From a virus: a DNA stretch of 24,701 nt. The stretch is taken from the IMG/VR virus record IMGVR_UViG_3300032116_001254, positions 1-24,701 of that record. The stretch is one strand, 5' to 3'. The first letter of the stretch is position 1. Each line of letters starts with the position of its first letter. Shown piece after piece: positions 7,217-20,853 of the stretch. A program made the position numbers and the translations under genes. The notes under the pieces were generated by a model. It did not search any database and was not told the DNA's origin. It saw nothing but the letters and a program-made list of their open reading frames with translations.

Positions 7217-9874
7217 GTGAAAAAAGTTTTGTTTATTGTGCCACATCTTTCCACAGGTGGCCTACCTCAATATACACTATCACTAATAAAAAAAATAATG
7301 AATGACGTTGATGTGTATTGTATTGAATATAGAATGATAGCTGATATTTTTGTTGTTCAAAGAAAACAAATTGTAAACCTTTTAGGTGATAAATTTTATT
7401 CTTTGAAAAATGGGGATATTGAATTACAATCAATCATAGATAACATTGAACCAGACATAATACATTTACAAGAAATTCCAGAATTGTTTATGGATTACAA
7501 TGATACTGTTAAGTTATATGATATTGATAGAAAATATGTAATAATTGAAACTTCACACGATTCATCATTTAAGGCATCTAGTAAAGAATTTTTTCCCGAT
7601 AAGGTTGCCTTGATTTCAGAATACCAAAGACAAGAATTTTCTAAATTGAAAATACCAATATCTATAATAGAATCTGATATAGAATATAAAGAAAGACAAA
7701 ACAGAGACGAAGCTTTAATACAACTTGGACTGGATCCAAATATAAAACACATACTTAATGTTGGACTTTTTACCCCAAGAAAAAATCAATCAGAAATTTT
7801 TGATTATGCAAAATCTATGGTTGATTATCCTATTCAATTTCATTTTATTGGAAATCAAGCTAGTAATTTTCAAAATTATTGGAAACCTTTACTTGAAAAT
7901 TGTCCGCCTAATGTTAAGATTTGGGGAGAGCGTGGTGATGTTGATAATTTCTATTCTTGTATGGATTTGTTTTTATTTACATCAAGAGGAAATTCAAATG
8001 ACAAAGAAACTAGCCCACTTGTTATACGAGAGGCGATAGGTTATGGTATACCGTCATTGATATACAATCTTCCAGTTTATATGAATATGTATGACAAATA
8101 CAATACAATAAAATATCTAAATTTTGAAGATTTGGAATTTAACAAAGAATTGATATGTTCAGAACTTGGTCTTAAATATGAAAGAAAATATATTCACGAA
8201 AAAATGTTCAAATTAAAATTCATAGATGATGATAATAAAATAGAAATATCATATGATAAAGAAAAAAGATTTGATGCAAAAATATCAATAAAGGATATTG
8301 ATTCAAATGTTCCGATATATTGGTTTGAAGCAGTTTTCCATGATAAAAATACATATTGGACAATACCAAGCCCAAAACACGTTTATGATTTTATGAAAGA
8401 TGATACATTTAGAGGGTTTAATGTTGAAATATATTCTTCTGATAATTCATTAGTAGAATCACATGAGTTGATTATCAAAGATGTTGATAAAAAAAGGAAT
8501 GTTGTATTGAATGTTGATAACCCATTTGATTGTATATTTTTTAATTACAATGAAATGTTTGTTAATGGTCAATATGATTGCTATAACATTGAAAATTTAG
8601 ATACTGTTTTTGATATTGGTGCTAATAATGGTTTGTTTACATTGTATCTATTGAATAAAGGTTGTAAAAAAGTTTACGCGTTTGAACCAAATAATAAAAC
8701 TGAAAAAAATATAAAATCAATTTTGAAAGATTATGACAATTACGAATTGATTAAAAAGGCGGTTTACACACACGATGACGGTATAACATTTTATACATCA
8801 GAAAACAATTCCACAATTGGATCTATTAACAGAAGCCATGTTCTTGCACAAGGATATGCTGCTGAAAATACTGTTGAATCTATATCATTAAATACATTTA
8901 TACAAGAGAATGGTATAACAAAAATAGATTTGATTAAAATGGATGTAGAAGGTGCTGAATATGATGTTATAGAAAATCTTGAAGATTACATATTTGATAT
9001 TACAGATTCCTTTTTGATAGAATATCACAGTAATCAAAATGGTGTTGCTAAAAAAATGGTAGAAAAAATACTATCACACGGTTTTGTCATTTCTCAAATC
9101 CGTGACCAAAGTAGTCATACGAATGATGATATAACTCAAACATACGAGGATAGTGATGCTGGAACTATTCATTTTGTAAAAAAAAATAAAAAAAAAATTA
9201 AAGCGGTTCAATTTTTATTAAATATAGAATCTGATAAACAATCAAAATCCATAGAAAACATATCTCAAATTGAATCTATTGGAATAAATTATGTAAAACA
9301 TTTCAACGAGTTGTATACAGATTTACCTCCCGTTTCAAAATGCAATAGACCAAATGATGTTAGTTTGGAATTAAAATCAAATTCATTAACACCAGCACAT
9401 TATGGTTGCTACGAATCATTTAAGAATGTAATTTTATCAGAATTTGATTCTGATTTAGATGCACTTATAGTTTTTGAAGGTGATGCAAAAATAAATGACA
9501 TTACAACTTTCAATGAAATAATGAATCATGCTATAAATCTTTTCGAGAGAAACATAATAGATTTTGTTTCATTTGGTGGACCATATGATCTAGAAAATGG
9601 TATACTACAATCAGTCACAAGAAAAGAAGTTTCTAAACATATTTTCATTTCAGATAAAGTAATTGGTTGCCAATGTATTGTCATAGGAAAACATTTTAAG
9701 AACAAAATTAAAAATTTACTACTGACTGAAAAATGGGATGCATTAGATTTGTATTTAACAAACATTTCAAATAAAAATGATATAAATGTTGGAATAACAT
9801 ATAAAACAATAGTAACTCAATTTGACGGAAAATCTGATATAGATGGTTATGATAAAAAATTTAAGGTGTTTTGA
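7217..9874 (+). CDS. Three-domain enzyme: GT4-like glycosyltransferase, FkbM-type methyltransferase, GT25-like glycosyltransferase
   Basis: The 885-residue protein joins three recognisable units. Residues 1 to about 330 look like a GT-B glycosyltransferase of family GT4: N-terminal KVLFIVPHLSTGG, a VGLFTPRKN strand near 182, and an E-x7-E motif (E264, E272) that normally contacts the donor sugar nucleotide. Residues about 460-655 are an FkbM-type SAM methyltransferase with DTVFDIGANNG (462-472), an acidic AFEPN and KMDVEGAE (574-581), which would O-methylate a sugar. From about 660 to the end the fold resembles GT25: LTPAHYGCYESF near 724 and a DxD-like EGD at 754-756. About 130 residues between GT4 and FkbM are not assigned. 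Start is GTG, six bases after AAAGG. It overlaps the next gene's upstream region and likely acts with it. A role in decorating phage proteins or host glycans is inferred. Confidence 0.8.
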   Translation: MKKVLFIVPHLSTGGLPQYTLSLIKKIMNDVDVYCIEYRMIADIFVVQRKQIVNLLGDKFYSLKNGDIELQSIIDNIEPDIIHLQEIPELFMDYNDTVKLYDIDRKYVIIETSHDSSFKASSKEFFPDKVALISEYQRQEFSKLKIPISIIESDIEYKERQNRDEALIQLGLDPNIKHILNVGLFTPRKNQSEIFDYAKSMVDYPIQFHFIGNQASNFQNYWKPLLENCPPNVKIWGERGDVDNFYSCMDLFLFTSRGNSNDKETSPLVIREAIGYGIPSLIYNLPVYMNMYDKYNTIKYLNFEDLEFNKELICSELGLKYERKYIHEKMFKLKFIDDDNKIEISYDKEKRFDAKISIKDIDSNVPIYWFEAVFHDKNTYWTIPSPKHVYDFMKDDTFRGFNVEIYSSDNSLVESHELIIKDVDKKRNVVLNVDNPFDCIFFNYNEMFVNGQYDCYNIENLDTVFDIGANNGLFTLYLLNKGCKKVYAFEPNNKTEKNIKSILKDYDNYELIKKAVYTHDDGITFYTSENNSTIGSINRSHVLAQGYAAENTVESISLNTFIQENGITKIDLIKMDVEGAEYDVIENLEDYIFDITDSFLIEYHSNQNGVAKKMVEKILSHGFVISQIRDQSSHTNDDITQTYEDSDAGTIHFVKKNKKKIKAVQFLLNIESDKQSKSIENISQIESIGINYVKHFNELYTDLPPVSKCNRPNDVSLELKSNSLTPAHYGCYESFKNVILSEFDSDLDALIVFEGDAKINDITTFNEIMNHAINLFERNIIDFVSFGGPYDLENGILQSVTRKEVSKHIFISDKVIGCQCIVIGKHFKNKIKNLLLTEKWDALDLYLTNISNKNDINVGITYKTIVTQFDGKSDIDGYDKKFKVF

Positions 9875-9876
9875 TT

Positions 9877-11961
9877 ATGAGAATTGTGCAAATAAATCCA
9901 GGTCACATGGAAATACCTCCAAAAAATTGGGGTGCAGTTGAAAAAATAATTTGGTATTATAGTTTAGAATTGAAAAAATTAGGACATGAAGTAGACATAA
10001 AGTATTTGAATGAAATCAATCCAGGTGAATATGACATAGTTCATGTTCATATGTGGAATCAAGCATTACATTTATATGAAAACGGTATTCCGTATGTTTA
10101 CACATTTCATGATCATAATGCATATCTTCAAGGAAATAATACATCTTTGTATTTGAATAATTTGCTTGCAATGAAACTCGCGGATATTTCAATAGTTCCT
10201 GCAAAATTTTTAATAGATTATTTTGAGGGTATTCCAATTTATTTGGAACACGGTATATCTTTGGACGAGTATTATCCCGGCGGTAATAAAAATGGAAAAT
10301 TGTTGTGTGTTGGAAATAACGGTGTGAGTGCAAATCCAACATTCGATAGAAAAGGATTTCGATATGCAATCAGAGCTGCGGAAAAATTAAATTTAGACAT
10401 TACTATTGTTGGTCCAACAGACAGTAACTTAAACTTTTTTAACAAAAATAAAAATCTTCTTCTACCAAACGTTAATGTTATTTACGATGCAACTTCCGAT
10501 GAATTAAAGGAAATTTATAGAAATCACAGTATGTTAATTCATGCAACTAGTATTGAAGCTGGACACCCACCTTTAACTATTTTAGAAGCCGCTGCTTCTG
10601 GATTGCCAGTAATTACAACTGATTGTTCTGGAGATTTGTATACTCTTAATGCTGATAGAGATTACAATGAAATATCTGAGAAAATAAATCATGTGTTGTC
10701 CAATTATGATTCGGAACAACAAAAAACATTAGAAAGTGTGCAAAAATATGATTGGAAAAATGTTGTATTCAAATTAGAAAATCTATACAAAGACATATCA
10801 AAAAGTGATATGAAAAATAAATCATTGAATATGTATAAATCTATTAAAAAAATAAATCATAGAAACTTGATAAAAATTACTTTCAATGATGGTGCAAAAG
10901 TAAATATAAGTGGACAAAAACCAGAAAAATATGAAATAAAATTTATAGATGCAAATAAGAATGAACTTGTATACTCCAGTTCAGTATCAACAAATTCTTG
11001 GGCAAAAACAAATAAAAAGTATTATTCAAATTGGAAAGTTATAGTAACTGATTCAAAAAATAATGTAATTGAACACGATTTTGATCTAAAAGATAAAAAA
11101 GTTTTGATACTTTTGGATTCAAAATCATTGGGAGATACTATAGCATGGATTCCATATGTAGATGAATTTAGAAAAAAACATGGATGTAAAACATATGTAA
11201 CTGCTTTCAACTCTTATTTGTTTGAAAGTGTTTATCCTGAATTAAAATTTGTTCATACATTTGATGAAATTCCCGACTGTTATGCAACCTATAAAATAGG
11301 TTGGTTTTACGATTCAAATGGATATAACAGAAATATGAATCCAAATGATCCAAATAAAATGTCTCTACAAGAAACAATTACTGATATACTTGGATTAGAA
11401 TATAAAGAAATTAAACCAAGAATAATAGAATTGCCAAAATATGAGGCAGAAAGGCCATATGTTTGTATTGCAACACACTCTACTGCTCAGGCAAAATACT
11501 GGAATAATCCAACCGGCTGGCAAGAATTGGTTGATTATTTTAACTCTATTGGTATTGATGTTTACCTAATTTCCAGCGAAGAAGATGGTTATATGGGGAA
11601 TAAACAACCAATCGGTGTTAAAAAAATAAATAAAAAATCTTTGGATGAAATTGGATCAATACTGTTGGGTTCTAAAATGTTTATAGGTCTTGGTAGTGGA
11701 TTGACTTGGTATGCTTGGGCACTTAATGTTCCAACTGTATTGATAAGTGGTTTTTCTGAACCATATCAAGAAATGAAATCAGATGTTGTTCGTATAATAA
11801 ATACTGATGTTTGTCATGGTTGTTTTGCTAAACACCTGTTTGACAGAGGAGATTGGAATTGGTGTCCGGAACATAAAGGAACTGAAAGACAGTTTGAATG
11901 TACAAAATCTATTACATTTGACATGGTAAAACCTCACATAGAAAATCTGTTGAAACTATAA
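9877..11961 (+). CDS. GT4-like glycosyltransferase fused to autotransporter-type (TibC/AAH-like) O-heptosyltransferase
   Basis: The 694-residue protein begins with a GT-B domain (about 1-310) carrying WGAVEKI, DIVHVHMW and a PPLTILEAAASGLPV donor-site region. From about 325 it matches the bacterial autotransporter heptosyltransferase family as I know it. A beta domain (NISGQKPEKYEIKFID, then WKVIVTDS) leads into VLILLDSKSLGDTIAWIPYV. STAQAKYWNNPTGWQ and GLGSGLTWYAWAL follow, and the end is a Cys cluster, C646-x2-C649-x13-C663-x11-C675, containing GDWNWCPEHKGT. In TibC, such cysteines bind iron and the enzyme adds heptose to serines of repeated adhesin strands. ATG 9877 is preferred over TTG 9871, because AAGG then lies 10 rather than 4 bases away. 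Acceptors could be this phage's Ser/Thr-rich fibres; that is inference. Confidence 0.85.
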   Translation: MRIVQINPGHMEIPPKNWGAVEKIIWYYSLELKKLGHEVDIKYLNEINPGEYDIVHVHMWNQALHLYENGIPYVYTFHDHNAYLQGNNTSLYLNNLLAMKLADISIVPAKFLIDYFEGIPIYLEHGISLDEYYPGGNKNGKLLCVGNNGVSANPTFDRKGFRYAIRAAEKLNLDITIVGPTDSNLNFFNKNKNLLLPNVNVIYDATSDELKEIYRNHSMLIHATSIEAGHPPLTILEAAASGLPVITTDCSGDLYTLNADRDYNEISEKINHVLSNYDSEQQKTLESVQKYDWKNVVFKLENLYKDISKSDMKNKSLNMYKSIKKINHRNLIKITFNDGAKVNISGQKPEKYEIKFIDANKNELVYSSSVSTNSWAKTNKKYYSNWKVIVTDSKNNVIEHDFDLKDKKVLILLDSKSLGDTIAWIPYVDEFRKKHGCKTYVTAFNSYLFESVYPELKFVHTFDEIPDCYATYKIGWFYDSNGYNRNMNPNDPNKMSLQETITDILGLEYKEIKPRIIELPKYEAERPYVCIATHSTAQAKYWNNPTGWQELVDYFNSIGIDVYLISSEEDGYMGNKQPIGVKKINKKSLDEIGSILLGSKMFIGLGSGLTWYAWALNVPTVLISGFSEPYQEMKSDVVRIINTDVCHGCFAKHLFDRGDWNWCPEHKGTERQFECTKSITFDMVKPHIENLLKL

Positions 11962-14906: not shown

Positions 14907-16322
14907 ATGCCACTACGATTAAGACGCGGAACGGAAGCTGATAGAACAAGTATAACACCTGTTCAAGGTGAACCCATATACACAACAGATACCAAGAAGT
15001 TTTACATAGGTGACGGTGTAACCGCTGGTGGTGTTGAATTTGGTGTTGCTGGAACATCTGGTACATCTGGCGCAAACGGAACATCTGGAACTTCTGGAGC
15101 AAATGGAAGTAGTGGGACTTCTGGTGCCAATGGAACAAGTGGTTCATCGGGAACTTCTGGTTCTTCCGGAACATCTGGAACTTCTGGTTCTTCCGGAACA
15201 TCTGGAAATTCTGGTTCTTCCGGAACATCTGGAAATTCTGGCTCATCCGGAACTTCCGGAACTTCTGGAAATTCAGGTTCATCAGGAACATCTGGTTCAT
15301 CAGGAACATCTGGTTCTTCCGGAACATCTGGTGCCAACGGTTCTTCCGGAACATCTGGAGCCAATGGTAGTTCTGGTTCAAGTGGAACATCTGGAGCCAA
15401 TGGCTCTTCTGGAACATCTGGTTCTTCTGGAACATCGGGTCAAAATGGTAGTAGTGGAACTTCTGGTTCAAGTGGAACATCTGGAGCCAATGGCTCTTCT
15501 GGAACATCTGGTTCTTCTGGAACATCGGGTCAAAATGGTAGTAGTGGAACTTCTGGTAATTCTGGTTCATCCGGGACTTCTGGAGTTAGTGGTGCTGCTG
15601 GTTCATCCGGAACATCTGGTTTAGGATTCACTATTAGTGGTCCAACGGATGATATACTTGATTATCCAGAACTGAGCACACATTATTTATTGGTATACAA
15701 TGGTGTTGATAACAATATCACGGGATCACATTTGGTAACAATAAATCGTAATAATGAAACCGTTGATATGCAAATTGGTATAGAGTTTTTTAATGATGCA
15801 GGAATAACAACTGGTGGAAGTATTTCCGCAAATTCTGGATTTTATATTGGTGCTAACGGATGGACTGGAACTAACATATCAGCAACTGCATCATATGCAG
15901 CAACTGCATCTCGTGTTAGCACACTCAATCAAAATGTAACCGTATCTGGCTCAGTTTTTCTATCAGGTTCACTGCATACTCCAGTATTTGTAGATTATGA
16001 AGAAAAATATACAACAATAAATCATTCTTCTGCTGGTTCTATAACATATGACCTTTCACTTGGAAATATATTTTATGTAAATCAAACTGCAAACATAACT
16101 CTATCTACAATTACAAATCCACCAACTGCTACTAATCTTGGTAGTTTTACGGTAATACTTGATAGTGATGCAACATATACTGTTGCATGGGCGGCGTCTG
16201 TAAAATGGCCATCTGGAATTGCTCCTGATTTGGATAACGGTCCTGCTGTAAACATTGTTAGTTTTATTACGCCGAATGGTGGAACCGATTGGTATGGATT
16301 TGTTGGTGGTCTTGCATATTAA
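14907..16322 (+). CDS. Collagen-like tail fibre with Mtd_N-like N-terminus
   Basis: The 471-residue fibre has three parts. Residues 1-48 (LRLRRGTEADR, GEPIYTTDTKKFYIGDG, VTAGG) resemble the N-terminal domain of the Bordetella phage major tropism determinant and related fibres, which attaches the protein to the virion. Residues 49-238 are an almost unbroken Gly-Thr-Ser/Gly-Ser-Ser/Gly-Ala-Asn triplet shaft of about 63 triplets. Residues 239-471 are a beta-rich C-terminal region with VSGSVFLSGSL and a terminal half ending DWYGFVGGLAY that resembles fibre tips of marine phages. ATG 14907 is preceded by ACGAGTATTTTA. The shaft contains a perfect 90-base tandem duplication. The shaft's high Ser/Thr content makes it another candidate glycosylation acceptor. 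Mtd_N assignment is by pattern recognition only. Confidence 0.8.
   Translation: MPLRLRRGTEADRTSITPVQGEPIYTTDTKKFYIGDGVTAGGVEFGVAGTSGTSGANGTSGTSGANGSSGTSGANGTSGSSGTSGSSGTSGTSGSSGTSGNSGSSGTSGNSGSSGTSGTSGNSGSSGTSGSSGTSGSSGTSGANGSSGTSGANGSSGSSGTSGANGSSGTSGSSGTSGQNGSSGTSGSSGTSGANGSSGTSGSSGTSGQNGSSGTSGNSGSSGTSGVSGAAGSSGTSGLGFTISGPTDDILDYPELSTHYLLVYNGVDNNITGSHLVTINRNNETVDMQIGIEFFNDAGITTGGSISANSGFYIGANGWTGTNISATASYAATASRVSTLNQNVTVSGSVFLSGSLHTPVFVDYEEKYTTINHSSAGSITYDLSLGNIFYVNQTANITLSTITNPPTATNLGSFTVILDSDATYTVAWAASVKWPSGIAPDLDNGPAVNIVSFITPNGGTDWYGFVGGLAY
15051..15620 (+). repeat. Collagen-like Gly-Thr-Ser/Gly-Ser-Ser coding repeat
   Basis: About 570 bases of in-frame 9-base and longer units (GGA-ACA-TCT, GGT-TCT-TCC, GGT-GCC-AAT) encode residues 49-238 of the fibre. 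The opposite strand is an open frame rich in Pro and Val, which is a by-product of the repeat and not a gene. Confidence 0.92.
15371..15557 (+). repeat. Perfect 97-base direct repeat with 90-base period
   Basis: Bases 15371-15467 are identical to 15461-15557. The repeat keeps the frame and adds 30 codons (GSSGTSGANG and GTSGQNGSSG units). Identity at every synonymous position implies a recent duplication. Confidence 0.9.
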
Positions 16323-16337
16323 AATTAAGGGTTAATT

Positions 16338-18503
16338 ATGATAAAAGATGTAATAGTAGCTGCACAAAAAACACCACCTGCTCCACCAGTTTATTTCAAT
16401 GAAGTGTGGACTGCGGGACAAGATATAAATGGTGAATTAGGACAAAATACCTCTGGTTTTGGTATTGGACGTTCTTCTCCCGTACAAGTTGGAACAGATA
16501 CAAATTGGAGTAACATATCTGCTTTTGCCAATCTTACACATGCAATTAAAACAGATGGTACACTTTGGGCTTGGGGAAATAATCAAAACGGTCAAATAGG
16601 CGATAATACTACAATAAGTAGATCATTACCCGTTCAAATTGGAACAGATACAAATTGGAAATTTGTAATATCACCATTAGGATTAAAAACAAACGGAACA
16701 CTATGGTCTTGGGGTAGAAATTTAGGTGGAGAACTTGGTCAAAATGACACCATAAGTAGATCCTCACCAACACAAATTGGAACAGGTACTGATTGGGCGT
16801 ATGTTAATACATTTGCATTAGGTGGTACACCTGTTGCTATAAAAAGTAATGGTACACTTTGGGTTTGGGGTGCATCGGATCAGGCTGGACTTTCCAGAGA
16901 CAGTAGACTACCCGAATTAGTTTATGAAGACATGGATTACACACAAATACGAAGTTACTCTAATTTTTCCATGGGTGCATATATGGGTTATGGTATAGGA
17001 TTTGATGGTAAACTTTGGGGTTGGGGTGCTAATACATCACGGATATTAGGTGATGGTACTAATGTTAATAAGACTCTTCCTGTTCAAATTGGAATTGATA
17101 CAAACTGGTCAAAAATATATGCTGGTGTAGATTCAAGTGGCAATAGTCATAATTTTTCTATAAAAACAGATGATACACTATGGACTTGGGGTACAAATAC
17201 AGTTGGTCAACTAGGATTATTAGATACAACTTTTAGATCAATTCCAGTTCAAGTTGGACCTGATACAAATTGGAAAACAGTTTCACAAGGTGAATCATTT
17301 ACCATTGCATTAAAAACTAATGGAACAATGTGGGCATGGGGAAGGAATACAAGTGGAAATTTGGCACAAAGTAATACTATGGCATTGACTGCAACACGAT
17401 CATCTCCAGTACAAATCGGAACTCGTTCCGATTGGACACAAATTTCTTCGGGTGCATCTCACACTATTGCAATCAGATCAGATGGTACACTTTGGGCTTG
17501 GGGTAATGGTGGTAGTAGGCAATTAGGAATAACAACACCGTTTACTGGTAATAGATCATCACCAACACAAGTTGGGGTTCTATCTAATTGGTCACAAGTT
17601 GCAGCTGGTAGATTACACTCAATGGCCATTGCTTCTGACGGAACATTGTGGACATGGGGTGGTAACGCTTCTGGACAACTTGGTAGTGGATTAACCAATA
17701 CATTGTCTTCACCAACACAAGTGGGGACTCGTTCCGATTGGACACAAATTTCGGCAAGAAATGATAGTAGTTTTGGAATACGAACAGATGGAACTCTTTG
17801 GTCTTGGGGTTTGAACACATCTGGTCAATTAGGTTTAGGTGTATCATCAAATCGTTCTTCACCAACACAAGTAGGAACTCTAACAAATTGGGCATCTGCA
17901 TCTATGGGTACAGAACATGTTGCATTTATGAATCAATCCGGAGTATTATACACGGCCGGTGGATGGTCCACATCTACTTTCAATTCAAAATTGGGAATAG
18001 GTAGAGCGGTAGTAGATGAAACCTCTAGATCGAGTCCAATCCAAGTTGGAACCGATACAAATTGGGATAGATTATTGGGGCAGGATATGGCAGTAAAAAA
18101 AACAGATGGAACCAGCTGGGCATTTCTATACAGATCCAGTCCTATTCAGATTGGAACTGATACTGATTGGTCTATGATTTCCTGCGATGCTGGGGTTCCA
18201 AAATTTGGTATAAAGACAAACGGAACATTATGGCAATGGACTTCATCTGCATTGACATCGTATTCTCAATCATTTGGTACTTCTACTGATTGGAAAAATG
18301 TTTCATATAATAAGAATGGTCCTTATGCGATTTTTACCAAAACTGATGGTACACTTTGGTTTTGGGGAAACAATAGTAACGGACAAGGTGGACTTGGTGA
18401 TACAATATACAGATCATCTCCAATTCAAGTTGGTACTTTATCATCTTGGGTTTCTGCCTCAGCTGCAACCACACATATCGCTATAATAAAAAGATATACT
18501 TAA
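16338..18503 (+). CDS. RCC1-repeat beta-propeller protein, 14 repeats
   Basis: Nearly the whole 721-residue protein consists of about 50-residue repeats of the RCC1 type: IKTDGTLWAWGxNxxGQLG followed by RSSPxQVGTDTNWxxIS. I count 14 copies of the DTNW-like strand and 14 of the WxWG-like strand. The first is shortened (VWTAGQDINGELG) and three near the end are degenerate (LYTAGG, SWAFLYRSSP, LWQWTSS). RCC1 propellers have seven blades, so 14 repeats would fit two propellers in one chain. The short N-terminus (IKDVIVAAQKTPPAPPV) has no signal peptide. Placement directly after a collagen-like fibre gene suggests a virion surface or receptor-binding role rather than the guanine-exchange role of eukaryotic RCC1. 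ATG follows AAGGGTTAATT. Confidence 0.85.
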   Translation: MIKDVIVAAQKTPPAPPVYFNEVWTAGQDINGELGQNTSGFGIGRSSPVQVGTDTNWSNISAFANLTHAIKTDGTLWAWGNNQNGQIGDNTTISRSLPVQIGTDTNWKFVISPLGLKTNGTLWSWGRNLGGELGQNDTISRSSPTQIGTGTDWAYVNTFALGGTPVAIKSNGTLWVWGASDQAGLSRDSRLPELVYEDMDYTQIRSYSNFSMGAYMGYGIGFDGKLWGWGANTSRILGDGTNVNKTLPVQIGIDTNWSKIYAGVDSSGNSHNFSIKTDDTLWTWGTNTVGQLGLLDTTFRSIPVQVGPDTNWKTVSQGESFTIALKTNGTMWAWGRNTSGNLAQSNTMALTATRSSPVQIGTRSDWTQISSGASHTIAIRSDGTLWAWGNGGSRQLGITTPFTGNRSSPTQVGVLSNWSQVAAGRLHSMAIASDGTLWTWGGNASGQLGSGLTNTLSSPTQVGTRSDWTQISARNDSSFGIRTDGTLWSWGLNTSGQLGLGVSSNRSSPTQVGTLTNWASASMGTEHVAFMNQSGVLYTAGGWSTSTFNSKLGIGRAVVDETSRSSPIQVGTDTNWDRLLGQDMAVKKTDGTSWAFLYRSSPIQIGTDTDWSMISCDAGVPKFGIKTNGTLWQWTSSALTSYSQSFGTSTDWKNVSYNKNGPYAIFTKTDGTLWFWGNNSNGQGGLGDTIYRSSPIQVGTLSSWVSASAATTHIAIIKRYT

Positions 18504-18568: not shown

Positions 18569-19576
18569 ATGTTTGAAAAAGAAATTCATCCATTAGATGT
18601 TGCATTAAGTCATGCAATAAATGGACAACCAGATATAAGTGAAAAAATTCTACGCGAACAATCCCAAGATGATTTGAGGGTTCTTTTTAATTTGGGATGG
18701 CATGAAATGCGTCATAGTAATATGATGAAGGCATTTGAACATCTAAATTATGGTAGATTCATTAACACATTTGGATTACCTGCACTTCCTGGAAAGATTT
18801 GGAAAGATGAACCACTTGAAAATAAAACACTTCTTTTTAGGTGTGAGGGTGGATTTGGTGATCAAATTCTAAATTTTCGTTTTGCTAAACGATTTCAAGA
18901 AATGGGTGCAAGAGTTTTGGTATCGTGTGCATCGGAATTAAAACCTTTATTTTCAAGACATGGATTTATTTGTGTTGATAATGAAGTTATCATGTGTGCT
19001 CATTATGATTATTGGGTTCCTGCAATGTCTGCTCCGTATGTTCTCGGAATGGAATATGGTGATTTGGATGGTTCTCCATTTATCTTTCCATCTGAACCAA
19101 GAAATTTGTTTTCAAAACCTGGAAATCTTAAAGTTGGTATTCGTTGGAGTGGTTCTCCAGAATTTGAAGATGAACAACACAGAAGATTTCCGCCGGAATT
19201 GATGATAGATCTTCACGATATTCCAAATACAACATTTTATTCATTGCAAAGAGACGAAAATCTTGTAGATGGATTACCTTTTGGTGATATGCGTGAACAA
19301 ATGAAATCTTGGGATGAAACTGCAAACATAATTGCTGGTTGTGATTTGATAATAACATCATGTACATCAGTTGCTCATCTATCCGGGGCTATTGGAAAAC
19401 CAACGTGGGTGGTTACGCCCATAATGCCATATTATACGTGGGTTGTTCCTGGAGATACTTCTAATTGGTATGATTCTGTCAAATTGTTTAGACAAGAAAA
19501 ATACGGTGAATGGGATGTTCCATTCATAAAAATTCGTGAAGAACTTACTAAATTAGCAGAAGGATATGTTAAATAA
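18569..19576 (+). CDS. GT9/TPR-type glycosyltransferase
   Basis: The 335-residue protein has a short helical, TPR-like N-terminus (about 8-60, with VLFNLGWHEMRHSN) and a GT-B catalytic region. CEGGFGDQILNFRF at 92-105 is the GxGD loop of the ADP-heptose:LPS heptosyltransferase (GT9) superfamily. A KVGIRWSGSPEF strand begins the C-terminal lobe, NTTFYSLQRDE follows, and CDLIITSCTSVAHLSGAIGKPTWVV (from C258) is the donor-binding end of the fold. Enzymes with this TPR-GT layout transfer sugars to proteins or lipid-linked glycans. Its own host-type promoter lies directly upstream and the next glycosyltransferase starts in its stop codon, so the two form an operon. Donor sugar and acceptor cannot be read from the sequence. 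Confidence 0.78.
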   Translation: MFEKEIHPLDVALSHAINGQPDISEKILREQSQDDLRVLFNLGWHEMRHSNMMKAFEHLNYGRFINTFGLPALPGKIWKDEPLENKTLLFRCEGGFGDQILNFRFAKRFQEMGARVLVSCASELKPLFSRHGFICVDNEVIMCAHYDYWVPAMSAPYVLGMEYGDLDGSPFIFPSEPRNLFSKPGNLKVGIRWSGSPEFEDEQHRRFPPELMIDLHDIPNTTFYSLQRDENLVDGLPFGDMREQMKSWDETANIIAGCDLIITSCTSVAHLSGAIGKPTWVVTPIMPYYTWVVPGDTSNWYDSVKLFRQEKYGEWDVPFIKIREELTKLAEGYVK

Positions 19577-20371: not shown

Positions 20372-20400
20372 TTGTATGTAAATGAATTTAGGAATGTTTG

Positions 20401-20853
20401 ATGAAATATGCATTAGTAGAAGATGGTTTGGTAAAAGAAAGTAATAGAATGTTGCCAAGAAATTGGAAAAACATTTCAAATTTTTATTTATTAGATCAAG
20501 AAACATTGAAATCATATGGTTGGTTTCCATATAGATTTGAACCCGCATCTATTCCTGAAAATGGTATTTCTGACGGTAGTTATTATGAAATAACGGAACA
20601 AGAAGTTGTTGAAATACAAACATATAGAATAAAAACAGAATTAGAAATTGAAATTGAATTAGATAGTATGTGGTCTTTCATTCGAGAAAGACGAACTGTA
20701 AAATTAAAAGAATGCGATTGGACTCAATTATCAGATAGTCCATTAACTCCTGAAAAAAAAGAACAATGGCAAATATATCGTCAATCACTGCGAGACATAA
20801 CATTACAATCTGATCCTTACAATATAGTTTGGCCAGAAGAACCGGGAATATAA
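20401..20853 (+). CDS. Tail-assembly-chaperone-like protein (Phage_tail_APC type)
   Basis: The 150-residue protein ends in the signature of the phage tail assembly chaperone family. It has SMWSFIRERRTVKLKECDW (through W107), then a QLSDSPLTPEKKEQW segment, YRQSLRDIT, and DPYNIVWPEEPG. In that family the WxxIRxxRxxxLxxxDW helix and RQALRDI/VWP motifs are diagnostic. These proteins assist fibre or tail assembly and are usually encoded next to fibre genes. The N-terminus MKYALVEDGLVKES is like that of the 77-residue protein at 14640. I use ATG 20401 rather than the TTG three bases upstream, since TTTAGG is better placed for it. It stands first in a run of virion-related genes behind a candidate late motif. 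Confidence 0.75.
   Translation: MKYALVEDGLVKESNRMLPRNWKNISNFYLLDQETLKSYGWFPYRFEPASIPENGISDGSYYEITEQEVVEIQTYRIKTELEIEIELDSMWSFIRERRTVKLKECDWTQLSDSPLTPEKKEQWQIYRQSLRDITLQSDPYNIVWPEEPGI

Follow-up and report, generated by a model that had tools for sequence, protein, structure and literature searches.

RCC1 repeats in a fibre-gene neighbourhood

The window, by which we mean the whole 24,701-base viral fragment analysed (IMG/VR record IMGVR_UViG_3300032116_001254), contains a gene for a 721-residue RCC1-repeat protein. A gap of 15 bp separates it from the upstream fibre ORF, which has an Mtd_N domain and a collagen-like shaft, and it is followed by a GT9-like partner gene and a homologue of tail-fibre assembly proteins (Table 1). 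Between fibre genes, at 7217-11961, lies a sugar-modification island of two large ORFs carrying glycosyltransferase and FkbM methyltransferase domains; the second also matches TibC_1st and GT9. Searched as DNA against phage records, the window gave no matches.

Table 1. Features of the RCC1 locus, with positions in the window
Feature	Position	Strand	Basis
Fibre gene: Mtd_N domain, collagen-like shaft (65 GXX triplets), C-terminal tip domain like phrog_9017	14907..16322	+	Pfam, PHROG
RCC1-repeat protein, 721 aa, 14 repeats	16338..18503	+	Exact ORF bounds; profile and strand counts
N-terminal segment (residues 1-19, MIKDVIVAAQKTPPAPPVY), short predicted helix; candidate docking peptide	16338..16394	+	Sequence conservation, model
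N-terminal part of predicted outer split propeller (residues 20-199)	16395..16934	+	AlphaFold and VIA ranges; inferred topology
Predicted contiguous inner seven-bladed UVR8-like propeller (residues 200-573)	16935..18056	+	VIA match
Degenerate repeats 11-13 (residues 538-652; 12 and 13 truncated)	17949..18293	+	Strand and anchor inspection
C-terminal part of predicted outer propeller (residues 574-720)	18057..18497	+	AlphaFold and VIA ranges; inferred topology
Partner gene, 335 aa: TPR-like N terminus, GT9-like C terminus (weak Pfam matches only)	18569..19576	+	
Tail-fibre assembly protein homologue	20398..20853	+	phrog_4912, phrog_8716

The 721-residue protein matches the RCC1 family at levels far beyond chance (Pfam RCC1, E = 1.7e-83; WD40_RLD, E = 1.2e-92), with a PF00415 score of 275 bits over nine stretches against a cut-off of 21.7. 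WxWG-like strands occur 14 times (residues 24, 76, 122, 174, 226, 281, 332, 385, 437, 487, 538, 593, 631, and 673), as do DTNW-like strands (residues 57, 107, 153, 201, 257, 312, 366, 418, 468, 518, 576, 611, 652, and 704), the fourth of which is degenerate (DMDY). A cyclic-profile alignment traversed 13.9 repeats, confirming the counts of 14 and 14 in a preliminary description of this DNA. The seven repeats per closed propeller that characterize PF00415 are recognized here from sequence and structure prediction. The nearest solved structures by sequence are UVR8, HERC1, RPGR, HERC2, and RCC1 (PDB).

The preliminary description also held that three repeats near the C terminus have lost the WG core, and this is borne out for repeats 11 (YTAGG), 12 (SWAF), and 13 (LWQWT); the anchors are 35 residues apart in repeat 12 and 41 in repeat 13. 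Repeat 1 (WTAG) is non-canonical as well. Since repeat 14 is intact, the loss does not reach the end of the chain but stays inside the C-terminal third. Every member of the clade has a truncated repeat 12, and repeat 13 is still canonical in three of them (L013, L115, and L117), so that, judged from these sequences, the loss looks recent and stepwise within the lineage.

Fibre genes recur beside viral RCC1 genes. The tail-fibre family phrog_9017 was matched by 19 of 41 upstream genes scanned, and a collagen-like ORF lies upstream in 10 of the 66 viral RCC1 loci that have an upstream gene. An RCC1 propeller next to a collagen-like fibre, initially described as unusual, is thus uncommon, but it is not unique: the fibres of extracellular contractile injection systems (eCIS) have propeller lectins joined to collagen-like shafts (PMC12923769). 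The two resemble each other in combining a propeller with a collagen shaft on a tail-like particle, and differ in that eCIS fibres carry both in one protein, whereas the window encodes them in separate genes. At the N terminus of the RCC1 protein, a matching M-I/L-K/N-D/N-I start is present in 26 of 52 long relatives.

Repeat number and propeller topology

Repeat counts in full-length RCC1 ORFs from viral loci cluster at 7, 14, 21, 28, 35, 42, and 49, and ORF lengths rise in steps of about 355 residues. These counts rest on a column-based method and on ORF lengths, and the loci include near-duplicates, so that the following numbers are not fully independent: among 121 distinct full-length proteins, 102 deviate from a multiple of seven by no more than half a repeat, and in the subset of 34 that exceed nine repeats, 29 do so. 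A row-score count gave an exact multiple of seven for 52 of 87 clusters, but it inflates the number of repeats at N-terminal stretches, with many values of 8 and 15. In a second sample, picked by neighbour gene rather than by repeats, most complete arrays had about 7, 14, 21, 28, or 35 repeats, with a few exceptions. The longest count corresponds to a single ORF of 2,484 residues (L022, 738-8189), whose 49 repeats amount to seven propellers. In several loci (L018, L024, L028, and others), single-propeller genes adjoin one another in one frame with a single stop codon between them; this arrangement was not taken as evidence of readthrough, as the tblastn search favours same-frame neighbours.

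Such quantization argues for closed seven-bladed propellers rather than an open solenoid, and the 14 repeats of the 721-residue protein most likely fold as two of them. Two AlphaFold models, of modest confidence, were obtained from alignments of 15 sequences (run 1; mean pLDDT 70, pTM 0.51) and 21 sequences (run 2; mean pLDDT 75, pTM 0.53). Residues 200-573 of the run 2 model superpose on full-length UVR8 with a VIA Z score of about 49 and an rmsd of 1.7-2.1 Å over 350-355 residues; Photorhabdus PLL lectin propellers are also among the structural matches. The prediction therefore contains a closed UVR8-like ring. The degeneracy of repeats 11-13 makes closure uncertain in that region, and yet with this ring and the heptad steps up to 49 repeats we regard an open solenoid, or a single ring with some other number of blades, as highly improbable.

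The order of the blades is harder to settle. With a complete ring formed by the middle of the chain, the second propeller would need to be a split one, assembled from the N- and C-terminal repeats, and one single-propeller chain aligned with the run 1 model over 298 residues in the range 45-720 (Z = 13.8, 5.1 Å), as would fit an outer ring built from both ends. This nested arrangement is provisional and derives from the aligned residue ranges of the models. Of the tandem double propeller proposed initially, the two propellers stand, in line with the heptads and the structure prediction; the simple order of repeats 1-7 followed by 8-14 does not agree with the AlphaFold ring, which is made of middle blades. 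A sequential pair would also be compatible with the function proposed below, and we give it a little less than an even chance. Single-propeller relatives mostly run from the WG strand to the HxxAIK strand, so that their direct fusion would give 1-7 and 8-14, and in some relatives (L050, L057, and L076) linkers or broken hairpins fall exactly between repeats 7 and 8. Against this, the 7/8 hairpin of the 721-residue protein is canonical (IRSDGTLWAWG), and both models place one contiguous ring in mid-protein (approximately residues 200-573). Three further comparisons were not decisive: linker length at the 7/8 junction showed no excess, the hairpin score there was lower but not significantly so (P = 0.08), and irregular repeats seven apart, a potential sign of nesting, vary in position by clade. 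Similarity between repeats i and i+7 showed no excess either, and hence no sign of a recent whole-propeller duplication.

The GT9-like partner and divergence of the RCC1 gene

A search with the partner protein yielded 80 loci, of which 74 were analysed. The directly upstream ORF is an RCC1 array in all 67 loci with an upstream ORF; the other 7 have no ORF in the short upstream stretch. This strict linkage of RCC1 array and partner is the strongest pattern found and was absent from the preliminary description. Viewed from the RCC1 side, the partner family accounts for 36 of 59 non-identical downstream genes, some with only 30-38% identity. A Pfam scan of 36 downstream genes of RCC1 loci gave matches to sulfotransferase families in nine, to GT25 in two, and to APS kinase in one. 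Glyco_transf_9 is matched weakly by 12 of 17 members of the partner family (best E = 0.0074), and by the partner in the window at 11.7 bits, against a cut-off of 22. Among PDB sequences the partner protein has no relative, and its profile gave no significant match to the window's own glycosyltransferase ORF.

Compared with relatives L010, L011, and L012, the RCC1 gene has dN/dS values of 0.48, 0.30, and 0.33, respectively, against 0.07-0.09 for the GT9-like gene, 0.23-0.25 for the fibre-assembly gene, and 0.03-0.14 for other neighbours. In comparisons in which the GT9-like gene keeps 89-95% identity, the RCC1 proteins share only 51-68%. The variable columns lie mostly in predicted loops, and the W, G, P, and Q columns of the scaffold are conserved. 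As all the RCC1 values are below 1, the fast evolution could reflect relaxed constraint. Synonymous divergence of the RCC1 gene is also unlike that of its flank, being lower against L010 (dS of 0.10, compared with 0.24-0.70) and higher against L011 and L012 (0.8-1.0, compared with 0.25-0.70), a pattern that suggests allele exchange at the RCC1 gene.

Relatives in cultured phages and a putative role in host recognition

The module is common to the cultured cyanophages BUCT-ZZ01 and S-SRM01. In BUCT-ZZ01 (Kyanoviridae; host Synechococcus elongatus PCC 7942), a 14-repeat RCC1 gene is preceded by genes for a tail fibre and a fibre-assembly-like protein. S-SRM01 encodes the RCC1 protein gp335 immediately after gp334, the distal subunit of the long tail fibre, and a sulfotransferase gene adjoins gp344; the S-SRM01 paper makes no mention of mass spectrometry or RCC1. 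The phage represented by the window is probably related to T4-like cyanomyoviruses.

Phage proteins named "regulator of chromosome condensation" (phrog_7220 and phrog_4219; W70_237-239, GAP32 gp1, and the phAPEC6 set) belong to the same repeat family. Mass spectrometry found three RCC1 proteins in W70 virions (PMC11370258), which fall in the PHROG that the 721-residue protein also matches (phrog_4219), and the distant homologue gp1 in GAP32 virions (PMC5259590). These homologues, from E. coli and Cronobacter phages, are distant from the protein studied here, and their genes are not described as lying within fibre modules. At about 40-43 kDa, each W70 member has the size expected of a single propeller; the 721-residue chain would hold two and has a GT9-like partner. 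The fibre neighbourhood and these virion data on distant homologues suggest that the 721-residue protein is located in the virion.

One place for it there would be the interior, as a protein that organizes or condenses phage DNA. PHROG annotation points that way, as do the proposals of the W70 and phAPEC6 authors; in the accessible text of both reports, DNA organization is deduced from the name of eukaryotic RCC1 (PMC11370258, PMC7247149). The occurrence of homologues in virions and the calculated pI of 8.4 are in keeping with such a role, although the net charge is only about +2. Moreover, the gene sits in a fibre module beside sugar-modifying genes and diverges far faster than its flank, and we consider an internal DNA-organizing protein quite unlikely. 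Nor is Ran guanine nucleotide exchange or chromatin binding, as in eukaryotic RCC1, expected in a phage. The eukaryotic UVR8, RCC1, and HERC domains share the repeats and the seven-bladed fold, but have one propeller per domain, unlike the 14 repeats in a fibre module seen here.

Alternatively, the protein might stay outside the virion, as an intracellular or released lectin-like protein that would target the surface of the host or its sugars, for instance in superinfection exclusion. That RCC1 genes travel with glycosyltransferase-like and sulfotransferase genes would suit this role, and so would the structural matches to PLL lectins. We think it unlikely, since the protein has no obvious signal peptide (judged by eye), its gene adjoins fibre and fibre-assembly genes, and distant homologues are found in virions.

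Host recognition is favoured by the linkage to fibre genes, the partner enzymes, and the rapid evolution of the loops, and we consider it on balance probable that the protein forms two seven-bladed RCC1-like propellers and serves as the fibre-associated recognition head of a tailed phage. Receptor recognition, rather than DNA condensation, is our best reading of the locus. The preliminary description had suggested a receptor-binding or decoy head mimicking a common ligand-binding fold; for decoy or mimicry we found no support. In the proposed mechanism, the conserved W/G/SSPxQIG skeleton, evident in the alignments, would build the blades, and the fast-changing loops would present the binding surface. 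The RCC1 protein most likely docks on the fibre via its N-terminal segment, a suggestion drawn from sequence conservation.

Beta-propellers have been proposed as receptor-binding domains in phi11 (five blades) and phiKZ gp131 (seven blades) (PMC4901313). These are comparable as phage propellers, with no RCC1 relationship reported; the phi11 protein differs in being a homotrimer with the propeller inside one long chain. Another analogy is T4-type gp38, the receptor-binding tip of the long tail fibres in phage PP01 (PMC12892980). The order of the RCC1 gene behind the collagen-like fibre gene corresponds to that of gp38 behind gp37, both lying directly behind a distal fibre gene and both with an expected role at the fibre tip. 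No sequence relation was detected: the gp38 family is not among the significant Pfam and PHROG matches, and the model is an RCC1 propeller, not a polyglycine lectin fold. The 721-residue protein may therefore resemble gp38 in function while falling outside its family.

The GT9-like enzyme most likely glycosylates the propeller or the fibre, or alters a host glycan that the propeller reads. More speculatively, and with considerable doubt, the locus could exemplify a phage recognition-head cassette of fibre, RCC1 multi-propeller, and cognate group-transfer enzyme (GT9-like here, a sulfotransferase or GT25 elsewhere) that modifies the propeller or fibre during infection, with heads that would grow in whole-propeller steps, from 7 and 14 to as many as 49 repeats, and in some cases nest one propeller within another.

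DNA condensation is the function that annotations widely give to phage RCC1 proteins; the pattern at these loci speaks instead for a modular recognition head that evolves fast and is linked to the fibre. Its strict linkage to a glycosyltransferase-like gene raises the testable idea that phages encode the modification of their own adhesins, and a cultured relative with the same layout, growing on Synechococcus elongatus PCC 7942, puts that idea within reach of experiment.
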